Below, in pieces: positions 30,577 to 37,618 of a stretch of DNA of 64,000 nt. A program made the position numbers and the translations under genes. The DNA is taken from NCBI RefSeq assembly GCF_016859125.1, contig NZ_CP069338.1, positions 5,457,501 to 5,521,500 of the forward strand. The letters are read 5' to 3'. The stretch's first letter is position 1, and each line of letters opens with the position of its first letter. Under the pieces are notes generated by a model. The model ran no database searches. It had not been told where the DNA came from and worked only from the letters and a program-made list of their open reading frames with translations. The DNA comes from Archangium violaceum. Its GTDB lineage: Bacteria; Myxococcota; Myxococcia; Myxococcales; Myxococcaceae.

Positions 30577-30602
30577 CGTGGGGCCGAGCCTGAAGCGCGA
30601 CC

Positions 30603-30668
30603 GCGGTAGGTTTTACCGCTTCCCAGTCCGGTGCTCCCCACGGCAGCTCGATAAACCACTGGAATCAC
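30603..30668 (+). promoter_or_regulatory. Upstream activator-type elements of noncoding unit A
   Basis: Two blocks shared with unit B. Block 1 is a perfect dyad GCGGTA, 5 bp, TACCGC (30603-30619), ending 74 bp before the -24 element. Block 2 is CGATAA followed by a CACTGGAATCAC stretch (30649-30668), ending 25 bp before it. Distances are the same in unit B (75 and 25 bp). Position fits the binding site of a sigma-54 enhancer-binding protein; which one is unknown. Confidence 0.5.
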
Positions 30669-30692
30669 AAGCGCTTGCGCCCGTGGCCCTGC

Positions 30693-30708
30693 TGGCACGC
30701 GGGATGCT
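30693..30708 (+). promoter_or_regulatory. Sigma-54 promoter of noncoding unit A
   Basis: TGGCACG, CGGG, ATGCT: matches the -24/-12 consensus TGGCACG-N4-TTGCW at every position but one, with exact GG-to-GC spacing. The start of transcription would be near 30719. Confidence 0.7.
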
Positions 30709-30718
30709 CTATGTCCGT

Positions 30719-30949
30719 CGCGTAGAGGTAACGGGGCAGGACGGGGTGGTTGGGGCAGGGCGGGGCTGGAGCCTCGAGACGGTTGGGGTGGCTTTCAGGG
30801 CGGCGGGTAGGTCGGGGTTGGTGGTTGGGGGGATGGGGGGTTGGGGGGAAGCAGACGAGTCGGGGGACTCTTCGGGGGTAGTACGGGGACGTGAAGGGGA
30901 AGTGGGTCGGGGGGGCGCTGCTTGGGGGCGGCTCCTCCCCGATTCTTTT
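30719..30949 (+). ncRNA. Putative sigma-54-dependent G-rich small RNA, copy A
   Basis: Predicted transcript of about 231 nt from the sigma-54 promoter to an intrinsic terminator. The 5' part (CGCGTAGAGGTAACGGGGCA and on) and the 3' part from 30866 are conserved in copy B, while the middle differs in length. Most of the RNA is runs of three to seven G separated by T, A or TT, an obvious G-quadruplex candidate around 30815-30850. Terminator: 5' arm 30909-30918, 12-nt loop, 3' arm GCTCCTCCCC (30931-30940), T-run 30946-30949. No plausible ribosome site with start codon and conserved peptide was found inside the predicted transcript. Confidence 0.55.
30909..30949 (+). terminator. Intrinsic terminator of noncoding unit A
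   Basis: 10-position stem with one C-U mismatch and one G-U pair, a 12-nt loop, then GATTCTTTT. It matches the terminator of unit B position by position. Confidence 0.65.
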
Positions 30950-31026
30950 GGGCCGCTCGTCGCCTGCCGGGCCGTCCACGGAGCCGCCGTGCCGTATGGC
31001 ATTGGGAGCGGAGTCTCGTTCACTTA

Positions 31027-31056
31027 ATTGCAGATGCAATAGGGTTGCGTTAATTG
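31027..31056 (+). promoter_or_regulatory. Promoter/operator candidate of the DUF1826 gene
   Basis: An A+T-rich island just before the DUF1826 start. It contains a perfect dyad ATTGCA-GA-TGCAAT (31027-31040), an overlapping GCAA/TTGC dyad (31036-31048), and a TTAATTG direct repeat (31024-31030, 31050-31056). TTGCAG at 31028 and TAATTG at 31051 are 17 bp apart and could be -35 and -10 elements, which would put the transcript start almost at the ATG. The dyad overlaps this promoter, as a repressor site would. Confidence 0.45.
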
Positions 31057-31064
31057 TCGAGGCC

Positions 31065-31673
31065 ATGCCCTTGCCCGCCACCCGTCAACCTCCTCCCTCC
31101 TTCGTCACCGTGGAGCAGGTCGCCGACCTGACCGCCATCTTCGAGGAGCACCTCAACGTCTGTGTCTGGGAGCGCCCGGCGGACGCGGTGCTGTCGTACT
31201 GGCTGGAGGAGGTGTGCGCTACGCACCGCTTCCTCCAGGTGCGGGAGACGCGCGTGGGAGACGCGGAGCTGGGCGGCGTGCTGGCCCCGTTGCCCGATTC
31301 ACCGGGACGTGAGCGTTTCCGCCAGGAGTTGGCGGGGCTGGTGGAGCTGTACGCGGACCTCTTCGGTGCGGAGCGGGTGGGCGTGCGGCTGGGCACGTTG
31401 GATGCCCCCATGTGCCCCCGCTTCCATGTGGACCGGGTGGGCGTGCGGCTGCTGTGTACCTATACGGGTGCTGGCACCGAGTATCTCGACGAGGCGGATG
31501 TGCAGCACTCCCCGCTGGACGCGCGCCCGGGTGCCGTGACGCGGAGGATGGCTCCATTCGCCGTGGGGCTCCTCAAGGGAGAGGCCTGGCCCGGCAACGA
31601 GGGGCATGGCGCGGTGCACCGCTCGCCGCCCGGCTCCGAGCTCCGGCTGCTCCTCTCCCTGGACCTGCTCTAG
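31065..31673 (+). CDS. DUF1826 domain protein
   Basis: 202 residues from ATG. The C-terminal half has the DUF1826 signature (PF08856): CPRFHVDRVGVRLLCTYTG, GTEYLDEADV, and an HRSPPG segment before the LLLSLDLL end. The Cys, His and Asp in CPRFHVD suggest metal binding. In other bacteria DUF1826 genes often accompany zinc-homeostasis genes (COG0523 GTPases, Zur regulon), so a role in metal limitation is a reasonable guess; no such partner is present here. It lies alone between the two G-rich noncoding units, with its own A+T-rich control region. Confidence 0.85.
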   Translation: MPLPATRQPPPSFVTVEQVADLTAIFEEHLNVCVWERPADAVLSYWLEEVCATHRFLQVRETRVGDAELGGVLAPLPDSPGRERFRQELAGLVELYADLFGAERVGVRLGTLDAPMCPRFHVDRVGVRLLCTYTGAGTEYLDEADVQHSPLDARPGAVTRRMAPFAVGLLKGEAWPGNEGHGAVHRSPPGSELRLLLSLDLL

Positions 31674-31693
31674 ACACACGCCGAGAGGTGCAT

Positions 31694-31720
31694 GGGAGAC
31701 CCGGGCAGCAGCGGTCTCCT
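31694..31720 (+). terminator. Hairpin after the DUF1826 gene
   Basis: GGGAGACC (31694-31701) pairs with GGTCTCCT (31713-31720) across an 11-nt loop, 20 bp after the stop. No T-run directly after. Confidence 0.4.
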
Positions 31721-31819
31721 CGTCTGGTGTAATCCCTCTATAAATGCGGCTCTGTTGCATGAGGCCTTTCCATGGGCTCTCTCGGAGCGCGTGGCTGCCT
31801 TTGGCGCCCAGGCCGTTGG

Positions 31820-31885
31820 ACCGTAGGTCTTACCGTCTCCAGGGCGGGGCCTTCCCACCGCTACCCGATAAGCGCTTGAAATCAC
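31820..31885 (+). promoter_or_regulatory. Upstream activator-type elements of noncoding unit B
   Basis: Counterparts of the unit A blocks. Block 1 ACCGTAGGTCTTACCGT (31820-31836) has lost part of the left arm of the dyad. Block 2 is CGATAAGCGCTTGAAATCAC (31866-31885). They end 75 and 25 bp before the -24 element, as in unit A. Confidence 0.45.
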
Positions 31886-31909
31886 TGGCGCCTGCCCCTG
31901 GCTCACTGC

Positions 31910-31925
31910 TGGCACGGGGGATGCT
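31910..31925 (+). promoter_or_regulatory. Sigma-54 promoter of noncoding unit B
   Basis: TGGCACG, GGGG, ATGCT, with the same single deviation from consensus as unit A and identical spacing. Predicted start near 31936. Confidence 0.7.
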
Positions 31926-31935
31926 TGGTATTCGC

Positions 31936-32130
31936 CGCGTAGACGTGACGGGGCAGGACGGGGAGTCGGGTAGGGCGGGTAGGTGGGAATGGGGTGGGGG
32001 GGTTGGGGATTTGGAGTTGCGTTGTGACTGGGGGCAGTACGACGGGTAGGTGCAGTCTTCGGGGGTAGTGCCAGGGGAACCACGTCGGGGGGGAGCTGCT
32101 GGGGGGCGGCTCCTCCCCGACTCTTTTTTT
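31936..32130 (+). ncRNA. Putative sigma-54-dependent G-rich small RNA, copy B
   Basis: Predicted transcript of about 195 nt. The first 25 nt or so (CGCGTAGACGTGACGGGGCA and on) and the last 78 nt from 32053 align with copy A; between them the G-rich core is shorter and diverged. It ends in a better terminator than copy A: 5' arm 32087-32096, 12-nt loop, 3' arm GCTCCTCCCC (32109-32118), then seven T. It ends 17 nt from the stop codon of the convergent giant kinase gene, so it could also pair with that mRNA's 3' end if read-through occurs. Confidence 0.55.
32087..32130 (+). terminator. Intrinsic terminator of noncoding unit B
   Basis: 10-bp stem with one G-U pair, 12-nt loop, and TTTTTTT at 32124-32130. 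The strongest intrinsic terminator seen in the window. Confidence 0.8.
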
Positions 32131-32146
32131 CGCGACACCCCGACCG

Positions 32147-35100
32147 TCACGCGGACGGACGCGCCAGCTTCCCCGGGAGCACGACGGTGAACTCCGTGTA
32201 GTGTCCCTCCTCGGACTCCACCCTCAGTTTTCCACCGAGTGCGACGATGATGTCGTGGCTGAGTGACAGGCCCAGCCCGGTTCCTTCACCCGCGGGCTTG
32301 GTGGTGAAGAAGGGCGTGAAGAGCTTGTCGCGCAGCGAGGCGGGGACGCCCTGGCCATTGTCCCTCACGCGGATTTCCACCTCGCTCCCGGTCCAACGCG
32401 TGGACACCTTCAGCCGCGGCGGCTCGACCATCTCGGGCCGCCGGGCCTTCTCCTGGGCCGCGTAGCAGGCGTTGTCCAACAGGTTGAGGATGACGCGGCG
32501 GAGGTCCTCGGGCACCAGGCGGAGTTGTGGCACGGCCTCGTCGAAGGATATGTCGACGGTCACGTGACGTGGGGGATTCCGGGCGCGCAGCCCCTGCTGA
32601 ACGAGCCGGAGGGTCTCCTCCACCAGTTGATTGATGGAGGTGGGCTGCGGCTCTCCCCGGTTGTTGCGCGCGTGCCGCAGCATCCCATTGATGATGCCGC
32701 TGGCACGTTGCTCGTGTTCGCTCACCTTGGAGATGTTCTGCTTCAGCTCGTTCATCAGGGCGTCGAGCTCCTCCCGCTTCGAGGTGGCCCGGGCGCGGTT
32801 CACCGCTTCGCTCAGCTCGGGCAACAGCTCGAGCGACAGCTCGGAGAAGTTCTTCACGAAGTTCAGGGGATTCTTCAGCTCGTGGGCGATGCCGGCGGTG
32901 AGCGAGCCCAGGGAGGCGAGCTTCTCCTGGGTGATGATCTGCGCCTGCATGGCCTTGAGGCTCTCCAGTGCGCGCTGGAGCTCGGCGTTCTTTTGGTGCA
33001 ACTGCTCCGTGCGCTCCTGGACGCGGTGCTCCAGCGTGCGGTTGGACTCCGCGAGCTTGCGGTAGAGCCCGGCGTTCTCCAGGGAGATGGCCGCCTGGGC
33101 CGAGAGCATTCCGAGGACCCGGAGGCGGTTGGAGTTGAAGGCGCCCGCGATGAGGTTGTTCTCCAGGTAGAAGAGGCCGAGGACCTGCCTGCGGTGGAGG
33201 ATGGGGGCGCAGAGCACCGAGCGGACGTTGCGCCGTGCGATGTAGGGCTCGTCACGGTAGGGCTCCTGGGCGGAGGCATCGTCGATGAGGAGGGGGCTGC
33301 CGGTCTGCAGGACGAACGCGGCGACGGTCTGGCAGAGCGCGTCGCTGTGAGCCAGGCGCTGCGCGGAATCGAGGGGCCCGCTACCGCTGCCCACCTCGCC
33401 CGTGGCCTCGACGAAGAAGTCGTCCTCCCGCTGGAGCACCAGCACGCCGCGCTGGGCACCCGTGCTCTTCATGAGGATGTCGATGAGGTTGGCGGCGAGC
33501 TGTGGGAAGTGCAGCTCGCTGGAGATGGTCTGCGAGGCCTTCATCACCGAGGACACGTCGAGCGCCTCGTTGAGCGACTCGGTGCTGGACAGGTCGGGGC
33601 CGGACTGGAACTCCGGGTACTCACCTCCCAGGGGCCGTGCCGCCGGGGAGCCGGCTCGCTGGAGCTTGTGCTCCCAGGCCCCGAGCGTGCCGGTATAGGT
33701 TTGCAGCAGGTGGGACTGCTCGGCCACCAGGAGATGGACCTTGCCCGCGGCTCCCCATCGCTCGTAGGCGTTGAGGGACTCGACCAGGTAGGCGGCGGCC
33801 AGCGGAAGGCGGCTCAGGTCCGCCTGGAAGCGGAATGCCTGTTCACAGGCGATGGCCTCCACGCTGGTGAAACCGCTGGCGCGGGCCGCGGCGATGGCTT
33901 GCTCGTATAGGGTATGCGCCTCGATGTGCTGTCCCGTCACCCGGGCGAGCTCCGCGCGGACCAGCAGATGGTAGGGCGAGAAGTTCTCCGGCGCGCGGTG
34001 GGCGCACTTCTCCAGGTACGCGCGCTGTTGCTCCATGACCGCGAGCAGCTCCTGCTTCCGGCTCTCGCTGGCACCCGGGTACACCGAGGCCGCGCTCAGC
34101 GCGTGATAGAAGGCGTGTGTGGTCAGCAGGAAGACCCCGGGAGCGGCACGCATCAGCGGGGTCCCCTCCTCCGCCAGTGTCATCGCCTGGGATGGCTGGC
34201 GGAGCAGGTAGTGCTGCTCGAGCAGCACCATCGCTACGAATGCCTTGGCCGCTGGCCACTGGAGGTGGGAGAGCTGGATGGCCTGCTGTGGCACGTCCTG
34301 GGCTCCGGTCAGCAGCAGCAATGTCTGCCGGAACGCCCAGTGCATGTAGTGGTTGTCAGGGTCTTTCTGGGTGCTCAGCGAGTTGATGAACTTCTGGTTC
34401 TCTGCCAGGAGTTCCAGGAGCGGATCTCCCAGGGCGAGGCGCCGCCAAGACAACAAGGTGAAGCAATCTCCTGCATACTTCCAGTCCCCACTCTCCAGGA
34501 GGATTTTGTAGGCCTCGGCGAGTTGGGAGATGCCAACGCGCGCGCTTTGCGTCCAGTGATCGATGAAGCCCGCTTGGATGCAGAGAGTGCGGGCGTACTG
34601 CATTGGATCCTTGAACTGTGTAGCGAGCTCGACGCCGAGCAGGCCAACCCGCCTGCCGACGACAGGGTCGTCGAGAAGCGTCGAAACGACGAAGCCAAAG
34701 GAGGTGTAGCCATAGGGCAAGAACCGGTTGTTACCGTGCTCCAGGCTCAGTCTGATCTGTTGGAGTGTCAGGAGAACGAGGAGCTTCTGGGATGCGTAAT
34801 AGGCGGAGATCGCGATGGTGCCCATCAGTTCGGAGGCAAGCTGCGCCGAGGGATCGCTCATCCGGGGCAGGGCGAGCAGCTCCGCGGTGTCGCGGCGCGC
34901 CAGTGCTTCCTTCACTGTGCGCAGCTCCCTGACGAGCGTGGCGTCGTCAGGTGTGGTCGGGATATCGATGCCGAGCAGACGCAGGCCCTCGAGAGCATAC
35001 TCCAGCGACTCGGCATGCCGGTCGCCGAGGGTGCTCAGGGTGGCTTGTAGGCAGAGGACATTGGCTCGCTGGAGCGGGGTTCGCACCTGGGCGAGCAGTG

Positions 35101-37618
35101 TGGCGAAGCCGGAAGTCGCCGCGTCGATGTCGCCAGCGAGATAGTGGGATTCCGCGAGCTCCTTCTGGAGTGCGAAGGTCCGCTCGTGCTCCCGTTCCCG
35201 GGCCGCTGGAGGGATGAGCACGCCGCCCGTTCGGAAGAGCTCACAGGCGGTGCGGTACGAGCCCGAGCTCTTCGCCCGGCGTCCCGCTGCCAGGTAGAGG
35301 TCGGCCAGTTCCAGCCGCAGCGAGTCCGAAGTGATGCGCTCCGGCGCGTGGCCCAGGTGCGGCAGGATGGCGAACATCCGCTCGTCGAGCGTCTTCGTGG
35401 CGCGGGCATCCTCGTACAAGCGCAAGCCCACCTCCAGATGCCACGCCGCGCGCTCGTTTTCGGGAATGAGCGAATAGGCGGCCTGCCGGATCCGGTCGTG
35501 CTGGAAGCGGAAGGGGACATCCAGGTCCGTTGATTCCACCGCGCCGCCTTGAGGATCGAGCAGCACGTAGTCCTTGCCGAGCGGGAGCACGAATCTGTGC
35601 TCGATGGCGGTCCAGAGAATACGCGCCGTCTCCCCGGCCGTGGTTCCGTGGGCCACCCTGAGATCGCGGAAGCCAAACGTCATGCCCAGGCATGCCGCGA
35701 GCCGGAGCAGTGCGCGGGTCTCCGGAGGCAGCCGATAGCTCTCGGTTGCCCTCAGCGCGGCCATGTCGTCGGGGATCTCCTGGGCCTCCAGGTGGGCGAG
35801 ATCCCACTCCCACTGGTGGCTCCGCATGTCGAAGCGGAGCAGGCCCTGCTCGTACAGGAAGCGGAGGAAGAGCTTGATGGAGAAGGGGTTGCCGCCCGTT
35901 CTCGAGTGGATGAGGCGGGCGAGGTCCAGCTCGCGTCCGGCTTCCGCGGCGATGGCCTCGTGCACCATCCGGGCGACTTCCTCGATGTTGAGTGGCGCCA
36001 GGTGGAGATGCTCCCAAGTGATGCCGGTGGCACGCAGTTCGTCGAGCGCGAGCGTGAGGGGATGCGTCGTGGAGACCTCCGCATCGCGGTAGGCGCCGAC
36101 GAGCAGCAGGTGCCAGGTGGAGGGATCCCTGGCAAGTGTCTGCAGCAGGGTGAGCGTGGCGCTGTCGGTCCATTGCAGGTCATCCAGGAAGAGGGCGAGC
36201 GGGCGTTCGGGAGTCGCGAAGGCCTGGAGTGTCCTCGCGAGCACCATGTTGAGGCGGTTCCTGGATTCGGAGGCGGGGAGGGGGGCGGGCGGAGGTCGGT
36301 CGCCCACCAGCGCGCGGATTTCGGGGACGGCCTCGACGAGGACGGCGGCGTTCGCCCCGAGTACCTCCTGGAGGCGCTCACGCGCGAGGGCTGTCTCCTC
36401 CTCGCCCTCGCCGAGCGTCTGCCGCACCAGGTGTTGCAAGGCCTGACGCACGGCATCGAAGGGCTCGCTGCGCAGGAGCTGGTCACACTTGCCGATGGCC
36501 ATGCGCCCCCGGCTGGCGGCCGTCACCCGATACAACTCGTTGACGAGCGAGGACTTCCCGATGCCCGCCGGGCCGGAGATGAGCAGGAACTGGCCGTGTT
36601 CGGTCGAGGCGCGCGCATACGTCCTGGTCAGCAGGGCGATTTCCGAGCCGCGTCCATGCAGTCCCTGGGGCGTGCGGAACTGGTGGGAATGATCCTCGGT
36701 GCCCAGGGGGAAGGAGCCGGCCGGGTTTCCTTCTCGGAGCTGGCGTTGGCACTCCTTCAGGTCGGCGATGAGCCCCCAGACGCTCTGGTAGCGCTCCTCC
36801 GGGGCCTTCGCCAGCAGCTTGAGGACGATGGCCGCGAGGCACTCTGGCACCTCGGGGACGAGGTCTCGCGGTGAGCGCGGTGCCAGGGCCACGTGCGCGT
36901 GGAGCAGCTCCAGGGGCGTGTTCGTGGTGAAGACGCGGCGGTCGGTGAGCAGCTCGAAGAAGGTGGCGCCCAGGGCGTAGAGGTCCGCGCGGTAGTCCAC
37001 GCCCCGGTTCATGCGTCCGGTCTGCTCGGGCGCCATATAGGCCAGCGTGCCCGTCAGGTGTGTGGGGATCTCGGGGGGAACGACCTCCAGCGACAGGCCC
37101 ACCGCGAGGGAGAAGTCGGTGAGCTTCAGCACCCCGGTGGTGGGGTTGACGATGATGTTCTGGGGCTTGATGTCCTTGTGGATGACGCCGTGGTGGTGGA
37201 TGTGCCCCAGCGCCGCGCTGATGCGCACGGCGAAGTCGAGGAAGGTGGTCACGTCCAGGGGACCGCGCTCGTCCAGCAACTGGCGCAGGGAAATGCCACC
37301 GAAGTCCTCCAGGACGAGCGCCGCCCGGTCGGGGAACTCCTCCAGGCCGAGCACCCGGACGATGCCCTCTCCCTCGACGCGGCGGGCGACGGCGTACTCG
37401 CGGCGCAGCTCGAGGGTGCGGCGCCGGTCGAGATAGTCGCTGGTGGTCAGCTTGAGGATGACCGGACACTGGTCGCTGAGCCGGGTGGCCCGGAAGAGCG
37501 TCGAACGATGGCTGGCATGGAGCTGCTGATGAAGGGTGTACCCCGCCCGGTGTGCCACGGCTTCTCCTTCGTGCTCCAACCTCTGCCCATTCGCTGGGGG
37601 GCCAGCTGAATGTGGCAT
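32147..37618 (-). CDS. Ser/Thr kinase - AAA ATPase - GAF - histidine kinase fusion
   Basis: 1823 residues. A protein kinase domain (about 25-300) has K56, HKDIKPQN (147-154, D149) and DFS in place of DFG (168-170). An ATPase/STAND-like module has P-loop GPAGIGKSS (349-357) and a Walker B LALFLDDLQW. A long helical, TPR-like region spans about 720-1330. A GAF domain follows (about 1345-1520), then a coiled coil, and a HisKA domain with H1579 in AHELKNPLNF. The HATPase domain has N-box LNLLDNACYA and GTGLGLSLSH. This is the known 'trifunctional' architecture of large signalling kinases in myxobacteria and cyanobacteria. No response regulator partner is adjacent. Ribosome site before the ATG is weak, so the exact start is uncertain. 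Confidence 0.93.
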   Translation of the reverse strand: MPHSAGPPANGQRLEHEGEAVAHRAGYTLHQQLHASHRSTLFRATRLSDQCPVILKLTTSDYLDRRRTLELRREYAVARRVEGEGIVRVLGLEEFPDRAALVLEDFGGISLRQLLDERGPLDVTTFLDFAVRISAALGHIHHHGVIHKDIKPQNIIVNPTTGVLKLTDFSLAVGLSLEVVPPEIPTHLTGTLAYMAPEQTGRMNRGVDYRADLYALGATFFELLTDRRVFTTNTPLELLHAHVALAPRSPRDLVPEVPECLAAIVLKLLAKAPEERYQSVWGLIADLKECQRQLREGNPAGSFPLGTEDHSHQFRTPQGLHGRGSEIALLTRTYARASTEHGQFLLISGPAGIGKSSLVNELYRVTAASRGRMAIGKCDQLLRSEPFDAVRQALQHLVRQTLGEGEEETALARERLQEVLGANAAVLVEAVPEIRALVGDRPPPAPLPASESRNRLNMVLARTLQAFATPERPLALFLDDLQWTDSATLTLLQTLARDPSTWHLLLVGAYRDAEVSTTHPLTLALDELRATGITWEHLHLAPLNIEEVARMVHEAIAAEAGRELDLARLIHSRTGGNPFSIKLFLRFLYEQGLLRFDMRSHQWEWDLAHLEAQEIPDDMAALRATESYRLPPETRALLRLAACLGMTFGFRDLRVAHGTTAGETARILWTAIEHRFVLPLGKDYVLLDPQGGAVESTDLDVPFRFQHDRIRQAAYSLIPENERAAWHLEVGLRLYEDARATKTLDERMFAILPHLGHAPERITSDSLRLELADLYLAAGRRAKSSGSYRTACELFRTGGVLIPPAAREREHERTFALQKELAESHYLAGDIDAATSGFATLLAQVRTPLQRANVLCLQATLSTLGDRHAESLEYALEGLRLLGIDIPTTPDDATLVRELRTVKEALARRDTAELLALPRMSDPSAQLASELMGTIAISAYYASQKLLVLLTLQQIRLSLEHGNNRFLPYGYTSFGFVVSTLLDDPVVGRRVGLLGVELATQFKDPMQYARTLCIQAGFIDHWTQSARVGISQLAEAYKILLESGDWKYAGDCFTLLSWRRLALGDPLLELLAENQKFINSLSTQKDPDNHYMHWAFRQTLLLLTGAQDVPQQAIQLSHLQWPAAKAFVAMVLLEQHYLLRQPSQAMTLAEEGTPLMRAAPGVFLLTTHAFYHALSAASVYPGASESRKQELLAVMEQQRAYLEKCAHRAPENFSPYHLLVRAELARVTGQHIEAHTLYEQAIAAARASGFTSVEAIACEQAFRFQADLSRLPLAAAYLVESLNAYERWGAAGKVHLLVAEQSHLLQTYTGTLGAWEHKLQRAGSPAARPLGGEYPEFQSGPDLSSTESLNEALDVSSVMKASQTISSELHFPQLAANLIDILMKSTGAQRGVLVLQREDDFFVEATGEVGSGSGPLDSAQRLAHSDALCQTVAAFVLQTGSPLLIDDASAQEPYRDEPYIARRNVRSVLCAPILHRRQVLGLFYLENNLIAGAFNSNRLRVLGMLSAQAAISLENAGLYRKLAESNRTLEHRVQERTEQLHQKNAELQRALESLKAMQAQIITQEKLASLGSLTAGIAHELKNPLNFVKNFSELSLELLPELSEAVNRARATSKREELDALMNELKQNISKVSEHEQRASGIINGMLRHARNNRGEPQPTSINQLVEETLRLVQQGLRARNPPRHVTVDISFDEAVPQLRLVPEDLRRVILNLLDNACYAAQEKARRPEMVEPPRLKVSTRWTGSEVEIRVRDNGQGVPASLRDKLFTPFFTTKPAGEGTGLGLSLSHDIIVALGGKLRVESEEGHYTEFTVVLPGKLARPSA

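Follow-up and report, generated by a model that had tools for sequence, protein, structure and literature searches.

What are the two G-rich, noncoding units that stand on either side of a DUF1826 gene in this Archangium violaceum DNA (the window, a stretch of 64,000 nucleotides (nt)), and what would their transcripts do? An earlier note had read them as two paralogous sigma-54-driven RNA genes of a family separate from the myxobacterial small RNA (sRNA) Pxr. Conservation, the pattern of insertions and deletions (indels) and Rfam searches support such a separate family: the units very probably belong to a real family of sigma-54 RNA genes, the label ‘sRNA’ resting on their anatomy and conservation. 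The best explanation overall, to which we give a probability of roughly 0.5, is that these are free-standing, activator-switched RNA genes whose products would act in trans as multivalent G-tract or G-quadruplex decoys.

The units occupy 30604–30949 (unit 1) and 31821–32130 (unit 2) on the + strand and have identical parts in identical order: an upstream palindrome, then another block with an ATCAC end, a sigma-54 −24/−12 element, a leader, a G-run core and a terminator. In unit 1 the palindrome CGGTAGGTTTTACCG (30604–30618), the proposed activator site, was read in the sequence and found with a relaxed pattern coupled to a sigma-54 site. It is followed by the second block AAACCACTGGAATCAC (30653–30668), which the promoter alignment places at constant spacing to the promoter, and by the −24/−12 element TGGCACGCGGGATGCT (30693–30708; pattern search). 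The predicted RNA of about 231 nt (30719–30949) comprises the leader CGCGTAGAGG, the G-run core and a 3′ module. Within it lie the G-loop element ACTCTTCGGGGGTAGT (30867–30882), a weak hairpin that forms helix 1 of the 3′-module alignment described below, and an intrinsic terminator with a G-rich loop (30906–30949; terminator scan and the same alignment).

Unit 2 repeats this plan with the palindrome CCGTAGGTCTTACCG (31821–31835; read in the sequence, relaxed pattern), the second block AAGCGCTTGAAATCAC (31870–31885; read in the sequence, promoter alignment), the sigma-54 element TGGCACGGGGGATGCT (31910–31925; pattern search), a predicted RNA of about 195 nt (31936–32130) and the weak G-loop hairpin AGTCTTCGGGGGTAGT (32054–32069; read in the sequence, 3′-module alignment). 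Both starts were inferred from sigma-54 geometry, 12 nt beyond the GC of the −12 element, and both ends are T-runs. The shared order of parts, the coordinates and the start points 30719 and 31936 all agree with the earlier reading. Two of its details do not hold. For unit 1, GACGGGG had been given where the sequence has AACGGGGCAGGACGGGG. A 12-nt terminator loop had also been proposed; the terminator scan, which detects both terminators on the + strand, gives unit 2 (32084–32130) a stem of 17 pairs, a 4-nt loop and a T-run, the loop being shorter because inner bases pair too, some as G-U.

The sequence TGGCAC-N6-TGCT occurs twice in the window, once per unit and nowhere else. The sequence TGGCACNNNNNNTGCT likewise occurs twice, both times at the units, where 0.18 occurrences are expected and none of 100 shuffles reaches two. 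The genome that holds the window (G000) is one contig of 12.68 Mb, and with unit 1 as query its best other match is unit 2 (E = 1.4e-23). Further units lie near 3.33, 0.745 and 0.091 Mb, and a related unit near 9.56 Mb. The two units are indeed related, but they are not a simple pair of paralogs, as the genome totals five units of this type plus one sister-type unit.

The survey covered 96 genomes of the taxonomic family, among which g1 is Archangium and g11, g15, g23 and g26 are genera that we take to be Cystobacter, Stigmatella, Myxococcus and Corallococcus, respectively. With unit 2 as query, matches at E ≤ 0.001 came from 13 of 59 genomes, one of them its own; weak matches in G043, G044 and G053 revealed no such unit on inspection by eye. 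A covariance model of the 3′ module (R1) was built from 18 hand-chosen copies (17 of 21, omitting L004, L022, L024 and L045, plus L003). It matched 26 of the 96 genomes at E ≤ 0.01 and, below 1e-6, all six g1 genomes, all four of g11, four of seven in g15 and one in g26. With opposite-strand matches of the same hairpins excluded, R1 gives 53 copies in sense orientation, 2–9 per genome, spread over 14 genomes from g1, g11 and g15.

Left out of this count were weak R1 matches outside these genera, some of them in Myxococcus-type genomes (E 8.6e-5 to 0.009), and two g26 matches without a G-rich sigma-54 unit, namely G034 (6.4e-7), where a sigma-54 protein gene lies upstream, and G073 (4.6e-6). 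L292 (G027), a G-rich but ambiguous locus, is counted nowhere here. A scan of all genomes returned seven stretches, four from Archangium and three from unrelated metagenome-assembled genomes, the latter taken as chance. The family recovered by homology and covariance searching in relatives is far larger than two paralogs. The upstream block also led to a G-rich sigma-54 unit (L212; G015:C1:2185242) whose terminator is of a third kind.

At 50 of the 53 counted copies, or 50 of 55 R1 matches examined when the two g26 matches are added, a G-rich stretch follows a sigma-54-like element. This arrangement is lacking at two loci of g15, one of which sits at the end of a contig, at an orphan terminator in G015 and at the two g26 loci. 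After removal of 12 promoters more than 80% alike, and then of L119 with its degenerate upstream blocks, 37 of the remaining 38 promoters form a near-gapless alignment over 145 columns (A4). Its consensus reads, in order, GTAAGTCTTACCG, CAA-CCCTTGAAATCAC, TGGCACGCGGGATGCT and CACGAGAAG-like leaders. Both promoter and terminator are kept across three genera, as the R1 search and the promoter alignment demonstrate.

The palindrome is confined to these genes. Its strict form GTAAGNCTTAC upstream of sigma-54 sites gave 24 matches in 13 of the 96 genomes, all in g1, g11 or g15, and none in the reversed control. Twenty-three lie at known units and the 24th at a further unit at a contig edge, so every match stands at a family gene. 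The relaxed palindrome with a sigma-54 site, the pattern present at unit 1, gave 15 matches in the six g1 genomes, all of them at family units, with one in the reversed control. Such exclusivity fits a dedicated activator site. The palindrome is unlike the NmpR site (GCGCA-N5-TGCGC) and the Nla28 site (CT[C/G]CG[C/G]AG), as these appear in the accessible parts of the published accounts.

In eight genomes, the strict pattern of the TGAAATCAC-like second block gave 24 matches (15 G-tract genes, eight pxr genes and one protein gene; reversed control 0). The idea that this block is private to pxr and the G-tract genes is weakened by a promoter model (R2), which in ten genomes also finds protein-gene promoters that score like pxr. 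Among the R2 matches listed, units score 58–95 bits and one, L119, 38; a lower tier holds pxr, protein-gene promoters and further G-rich loci, one of these in a g23 genome; it is these G-rich loci that have the sister-type 3′ end described below. As far as these patterns reach, only the GTAAGNCTTAC site remains exclusive to the family. At L279, L280 and L282, a similar upstream block accompanies the sigma-54 promoters before genes for PRPDINGN-repeat proteins, in several adjacent copies.

In Myxococcus the sister gene consists of GGCACGCGCCCTGCT, G-runs and a GGAGCCGGTCCTC hairpin, and the 3′ end of the sister type reads GGCT, G-tracts, AGCC and then the hairpin GGTCCTCG...CGAGGACC. A covariance model of this end from six sequences (R3) matched 36 of the 96 genomes: 25 of 27 in g23, four of four in g11, three of six in g1 and, weakly, three of seven in g15 and one in g8. 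We examined 34 matches, two of which are the same place; 23 have at least 600 nt upstream and the other 11 less. A promoter GGCAY-N6-TGCW precedes a G-rich stretch at 22 of these 23 loci and at none on the opposite strand, the pattern having been widened after a narrower first form gave 8 of 23 and missed a known promoter. The distance from this promoter to the 3′ module is 161–929 nt. Between GGCT and AGCC, 20 of 31 sister sequences (of 32 distinct ones, one being unplaceable) hold four G-tracts of three or more, compared with 6.6% in shuffles, the sequences being related to one another.

The predicted transcripts of the 50 promoter-bearing units measure 88–1050 nt, with G at 46–57% and C at 13–23%, and core length varies about tenfold between copies. 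Relative to dinucleotide shuffles, they are rich in runs of three or more Gs (1131 against 888, standard deviation (s.d.) 15) and in quadruplex patterns (182 against 101, s.d. 6; duplication and shared ancestry uncontrolled), whereas runs of six Gs are far rarer (78 against 442, s.d. 24). In 37 of the 46 units whose length allowed a fold comparison (four excluded), more Gs are predicted to lie in quadruplexes than in the mean of the shuffles. Among 47 related pairs, positions differ at a rate of 0.098 for Gs in runs and 0.113 for other Gs, and 0.280 for non-G bases. Selective constraint on the core Gs is thus likely, as judged from these alignments. The longest predicted transcripts, L124 and L121 (g15) with 1050 and 821 nt, hold 135 and 93 G-runs, and repeat number there seems quick to expand or shrink.

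The leader and the 3′ module are the best conserved parts. In the R1 alignment, 97.6% of the cells of the terminator helix are paired over the 18 copies, with both-side changes at three pairs; the two helices together have 11 cells with such double changes, against 2.8 in shuffles. The earlier picture of conserved ends around a drifting middle stands for the ends; the middle keeps a G-run pattern more than it keeps a base-paired fold.

From these parts we propose the following scheme. A candidate NtrC-type activator would bind the GTAAGTCTTAC-like palindrome and turn on sigma-54 polymerase, giving an RNA in which a short conserved leader is followed by a repetitive G-run core and then by a terminator hairpin, also conserved, whose loop is G-rich. 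The core G-runs would find few Cs with which to pair, and the core, variable in length, most likely presents many equivalent G-tract, quadruplex-competent sites. These would titrate a ligand, either an RNA-binding protein or C-rich RNAs, and several scattered copies under one dedicated switch could yield a large joint output, as with CrcZ/CrcY or Qrr. Taken as a claim of its own, multivalent decoy action is tentative, at slightly less than an even chance. Our first guess for the ligand is a protein that binds G-runs or quadruplexes, our second C-rich RNAs, Pxr included. A bolder form of the scheme, which we regard as doubtful, is a regulon made solely of G-quadruplex-array RNAs, in which one activator drives 2–9 unlinked genes and the arrays absorb a quadruplex-binding protein or Pxr, helping to time multicellular development. 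We know of no bacterial RNA class that acts through repeat-number-tunable G-quadruplex arrays.

Several observations weigh against the decoy scheme. Fold energies with quadruplexes are no better than those of shuffles (−84.1 against −84.8). Regular G-runs may also arise by tandem duplication of short repeats, and one long core (L124) is itself a tandem-repeat array. As such duplication makes regular runs and aligners favour G matches, as evidence of selection the conservation of G is not clean. For the upstream G-loop hairpin, a weak one, 66.7% of cells across the 18 copies are paired, and RNAalifold omits it. The second upstream block marks more than RNA genes, occurring also at some protein-gene sigma-54 promoters and at pxr. 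Among the 31 sister-type sequences, 11 show three G-tracts of at least three Gs instead of four, and the helices of this type do not covary significantly.

The same anatomy could be read as that of classical trans-acting sRNAs, in which the leader or the G-rich loops pair with C-rich stretches of mRNAs and the core is a spacer or stabiliser. The superior conservation of leader and 3′ module and the great variation in core length speak for this. However, the core G positions appear constrained, with the alignment caveat just given, and a G-run core is retained across copies and across both types of 3′ end; we consider this alternative unlikely.

Pxr offers a more specific partner. The units are not themselves Pxr. 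Rfam at gathering score gave no match in the window, with Pxr (RF01812) and Qrr among its models, and none on seven other family loci; a permissive scan of the units gave seven matches, all under gathering score. The Pxr model is silent at the units, yet in the same genome it finds five tandem pxr genes at L167 (3528–4876, G000:C1:5535527–5536875), about 46 kb beyond unit 2 and about 14 kb past the window end. By translation, genes for a histidine kinase and an NtrC-type regulator border this cluster at one end and NADH-dehydrogenase genes at the other. Membership in Pxr is thus rejected on the silent model, the separate pxr cluster and the differing neighbours. The C-run loop of Pxr is missing as well, TTCCCC occurring 0 times in the 50 family transcripts. 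Published descriptions report three tandem pxr paralogs in Cystobacter strains. Pxr and the units have in common an intergenic position, tandem copies, several of them in genomes of Archangium and the Cystobacter type, and a sigma-54 promoter, here predicted, with a similar block 22–24 nt upstream. Unlike the units, Pxr is about 110 nt long, has a C-rich key loop and sits between PxrR (nla19) and NADH-dehydrogenase genes, according to the available part of PMC5568312, and the pxr copies read lack the GTAAGTCTTAC site.

As antagonists of Pxr, the G-tract RNAs would pair with its C-run loop GGUUCCCCCCCACC and lift its block on fruiting-body development. According to PMC5684412, Pxr cannot do without the C-rich loop of its SL1, in which a C-to-A change destroys function, and PMC11928866 states that the direct targets of Pxr are not known. 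The loop pattern GGTTCCCCCCCACC, with up to one mismatch, occurs in 88 of the 96 genomes, among them every one of the 14 that carry the G-tract family, and in 23 of 26 genera. GGGGAA, complementary to UUCCCC, is found in 33 of the 50 units and is enriched (48 against 26 in shuffles, s.d. 4.5). The pxr promoters also resemble those of the family: a family promoter profile, run on 709 kb, matches the promoters of the supplied pxr loci at 1.3e-10 to 0.07. This likeness extends to protein genes, however, and since some protein-gene promoters score like pxr in whole genomes, what the family and pxr have in common is, on promoter scores, a style and not a private circuit. Most pxr-bearing genomes lack this RNA type. 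Contact with the C-run of Pxr would come easily. Even so, six-G runs are avoided and no more than 12 of 50 units beat their own shuffle mean in pairing with the loop, so G-run counts and pairing reveal no tuning of the cores to the Pxr C7 loop. Antagonism of Pxr is in our view improbable.

Less probable again is that the G-rich stretch works as DNA, through a quadruplex or R-loop that affects recombination or neighbouring genes, with the transcript merely opening it. The DNA is quadruplex-prone and strand-asymmetric and follows a strong promoter type, but a dedicated terminator is conserved with pairing-preserving base changes and the neighbouring genes differ among inspected copies, which makes this reading highly unlikely. 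A small G-rich protein-coding gene is very hard to sustain. Some transcripts do have long open frames, because G-rich DNA has few stops; however, of 152 indels that separate related copies only 36 have a length divisible by three, the longest frame spans anything from 0.29 to 0.97 of the transcript, and ATG occurs in 20 of 50, so a coding core is rejected and the noncoding reading of the earlier note is upheld. A CsrB/RsmZ-like decoy for CsrA is virtually excluded: CAGGACG, which fits the CsrB repeat, occurs 63 times in the 50 transcripts against 2.3 in shuffles, but CsrA cannot be the ligand, barring an unrecognised CsrA-like protein, because PF02599 matches none of the 96 genomes while the same search is positive in three of 14 control genomes, E. 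coli among them.

Reading the units as activator-switched G-tract decoys places them beside several known systems. In the accessible part of PMC4063720, Pseudomonas CrcZ has an RpoN-dependent promoter activated by CbrB and titrates Hfq. The units would share with CrcZ/CrcY, as described there, an activator-switched sigma-54 gene bearing repeats and a proposed titration of a ligand, all of it predicted from sequence in our case; the candidate counterparts here are the sigma-54 element and the exclusive upstream palindrome. CrcZ uses A-rich motifs and Hfq, whereas this family has G-runs at 46–57% G, and M. xanthus is without an Hfq homolog according to the available part of PMC5684412. With the Vibrio Qrr RNAs, as far as the accessible accounts describe them, the family has in common several sigma-54-dependent copies per genome; it differs in having no Rfam match, a G-run array and widely varying length. 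Many copies of a short GGA-containing motif recall CsrB/RsmZ, but those act with CsrA, which the searched genomes lack.

The gene between the units is a DUF1826 gene (PF08856, E = 6.3e-54), as the earlier note had it, and the neighbours of the units are SDR, DUF1826 and kinase genes. Because the genes adjoining inspected family copies differ, the association with DUF1826 looks incidental; no neighbour common to the copies inspected was found. Convergent with unit 2, at 32147–37618 on the − strand, lies a gene whose very large product, a hybrid regulator, combines domains of the protein kinase, AAA ATPase, GAF and histidine kinase kinds. Tandem unit pairs with the spacing seen in the window, about 1.5 kb, recur at L101, L104 and L108 (g11) and at L135 (g1), and the enclosed genes differ (epoxide-hydrolase-like in g11).

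Our search of the open literature, outside which most subscription papers lie, found no description of such a family, and its only myxobacterial sRNA literature was work on Pxr; the family is apparently undescribed so far. It adds to the myxobacterial sRNAs a multi-copy RNA family, carried by some of the myxobacteria that form fruiting bodies, that is apparently switched jointly. The sister gene is present in 25 of 27 genomes of the genus taken to be Myxococcus, where genetics is routine. The G-run body makes bacterial use of G-quadruplex RNA arrays as regulators directly testable, and a composition complementary to the key loop of Pxr makes the family a testable Pxr partner.

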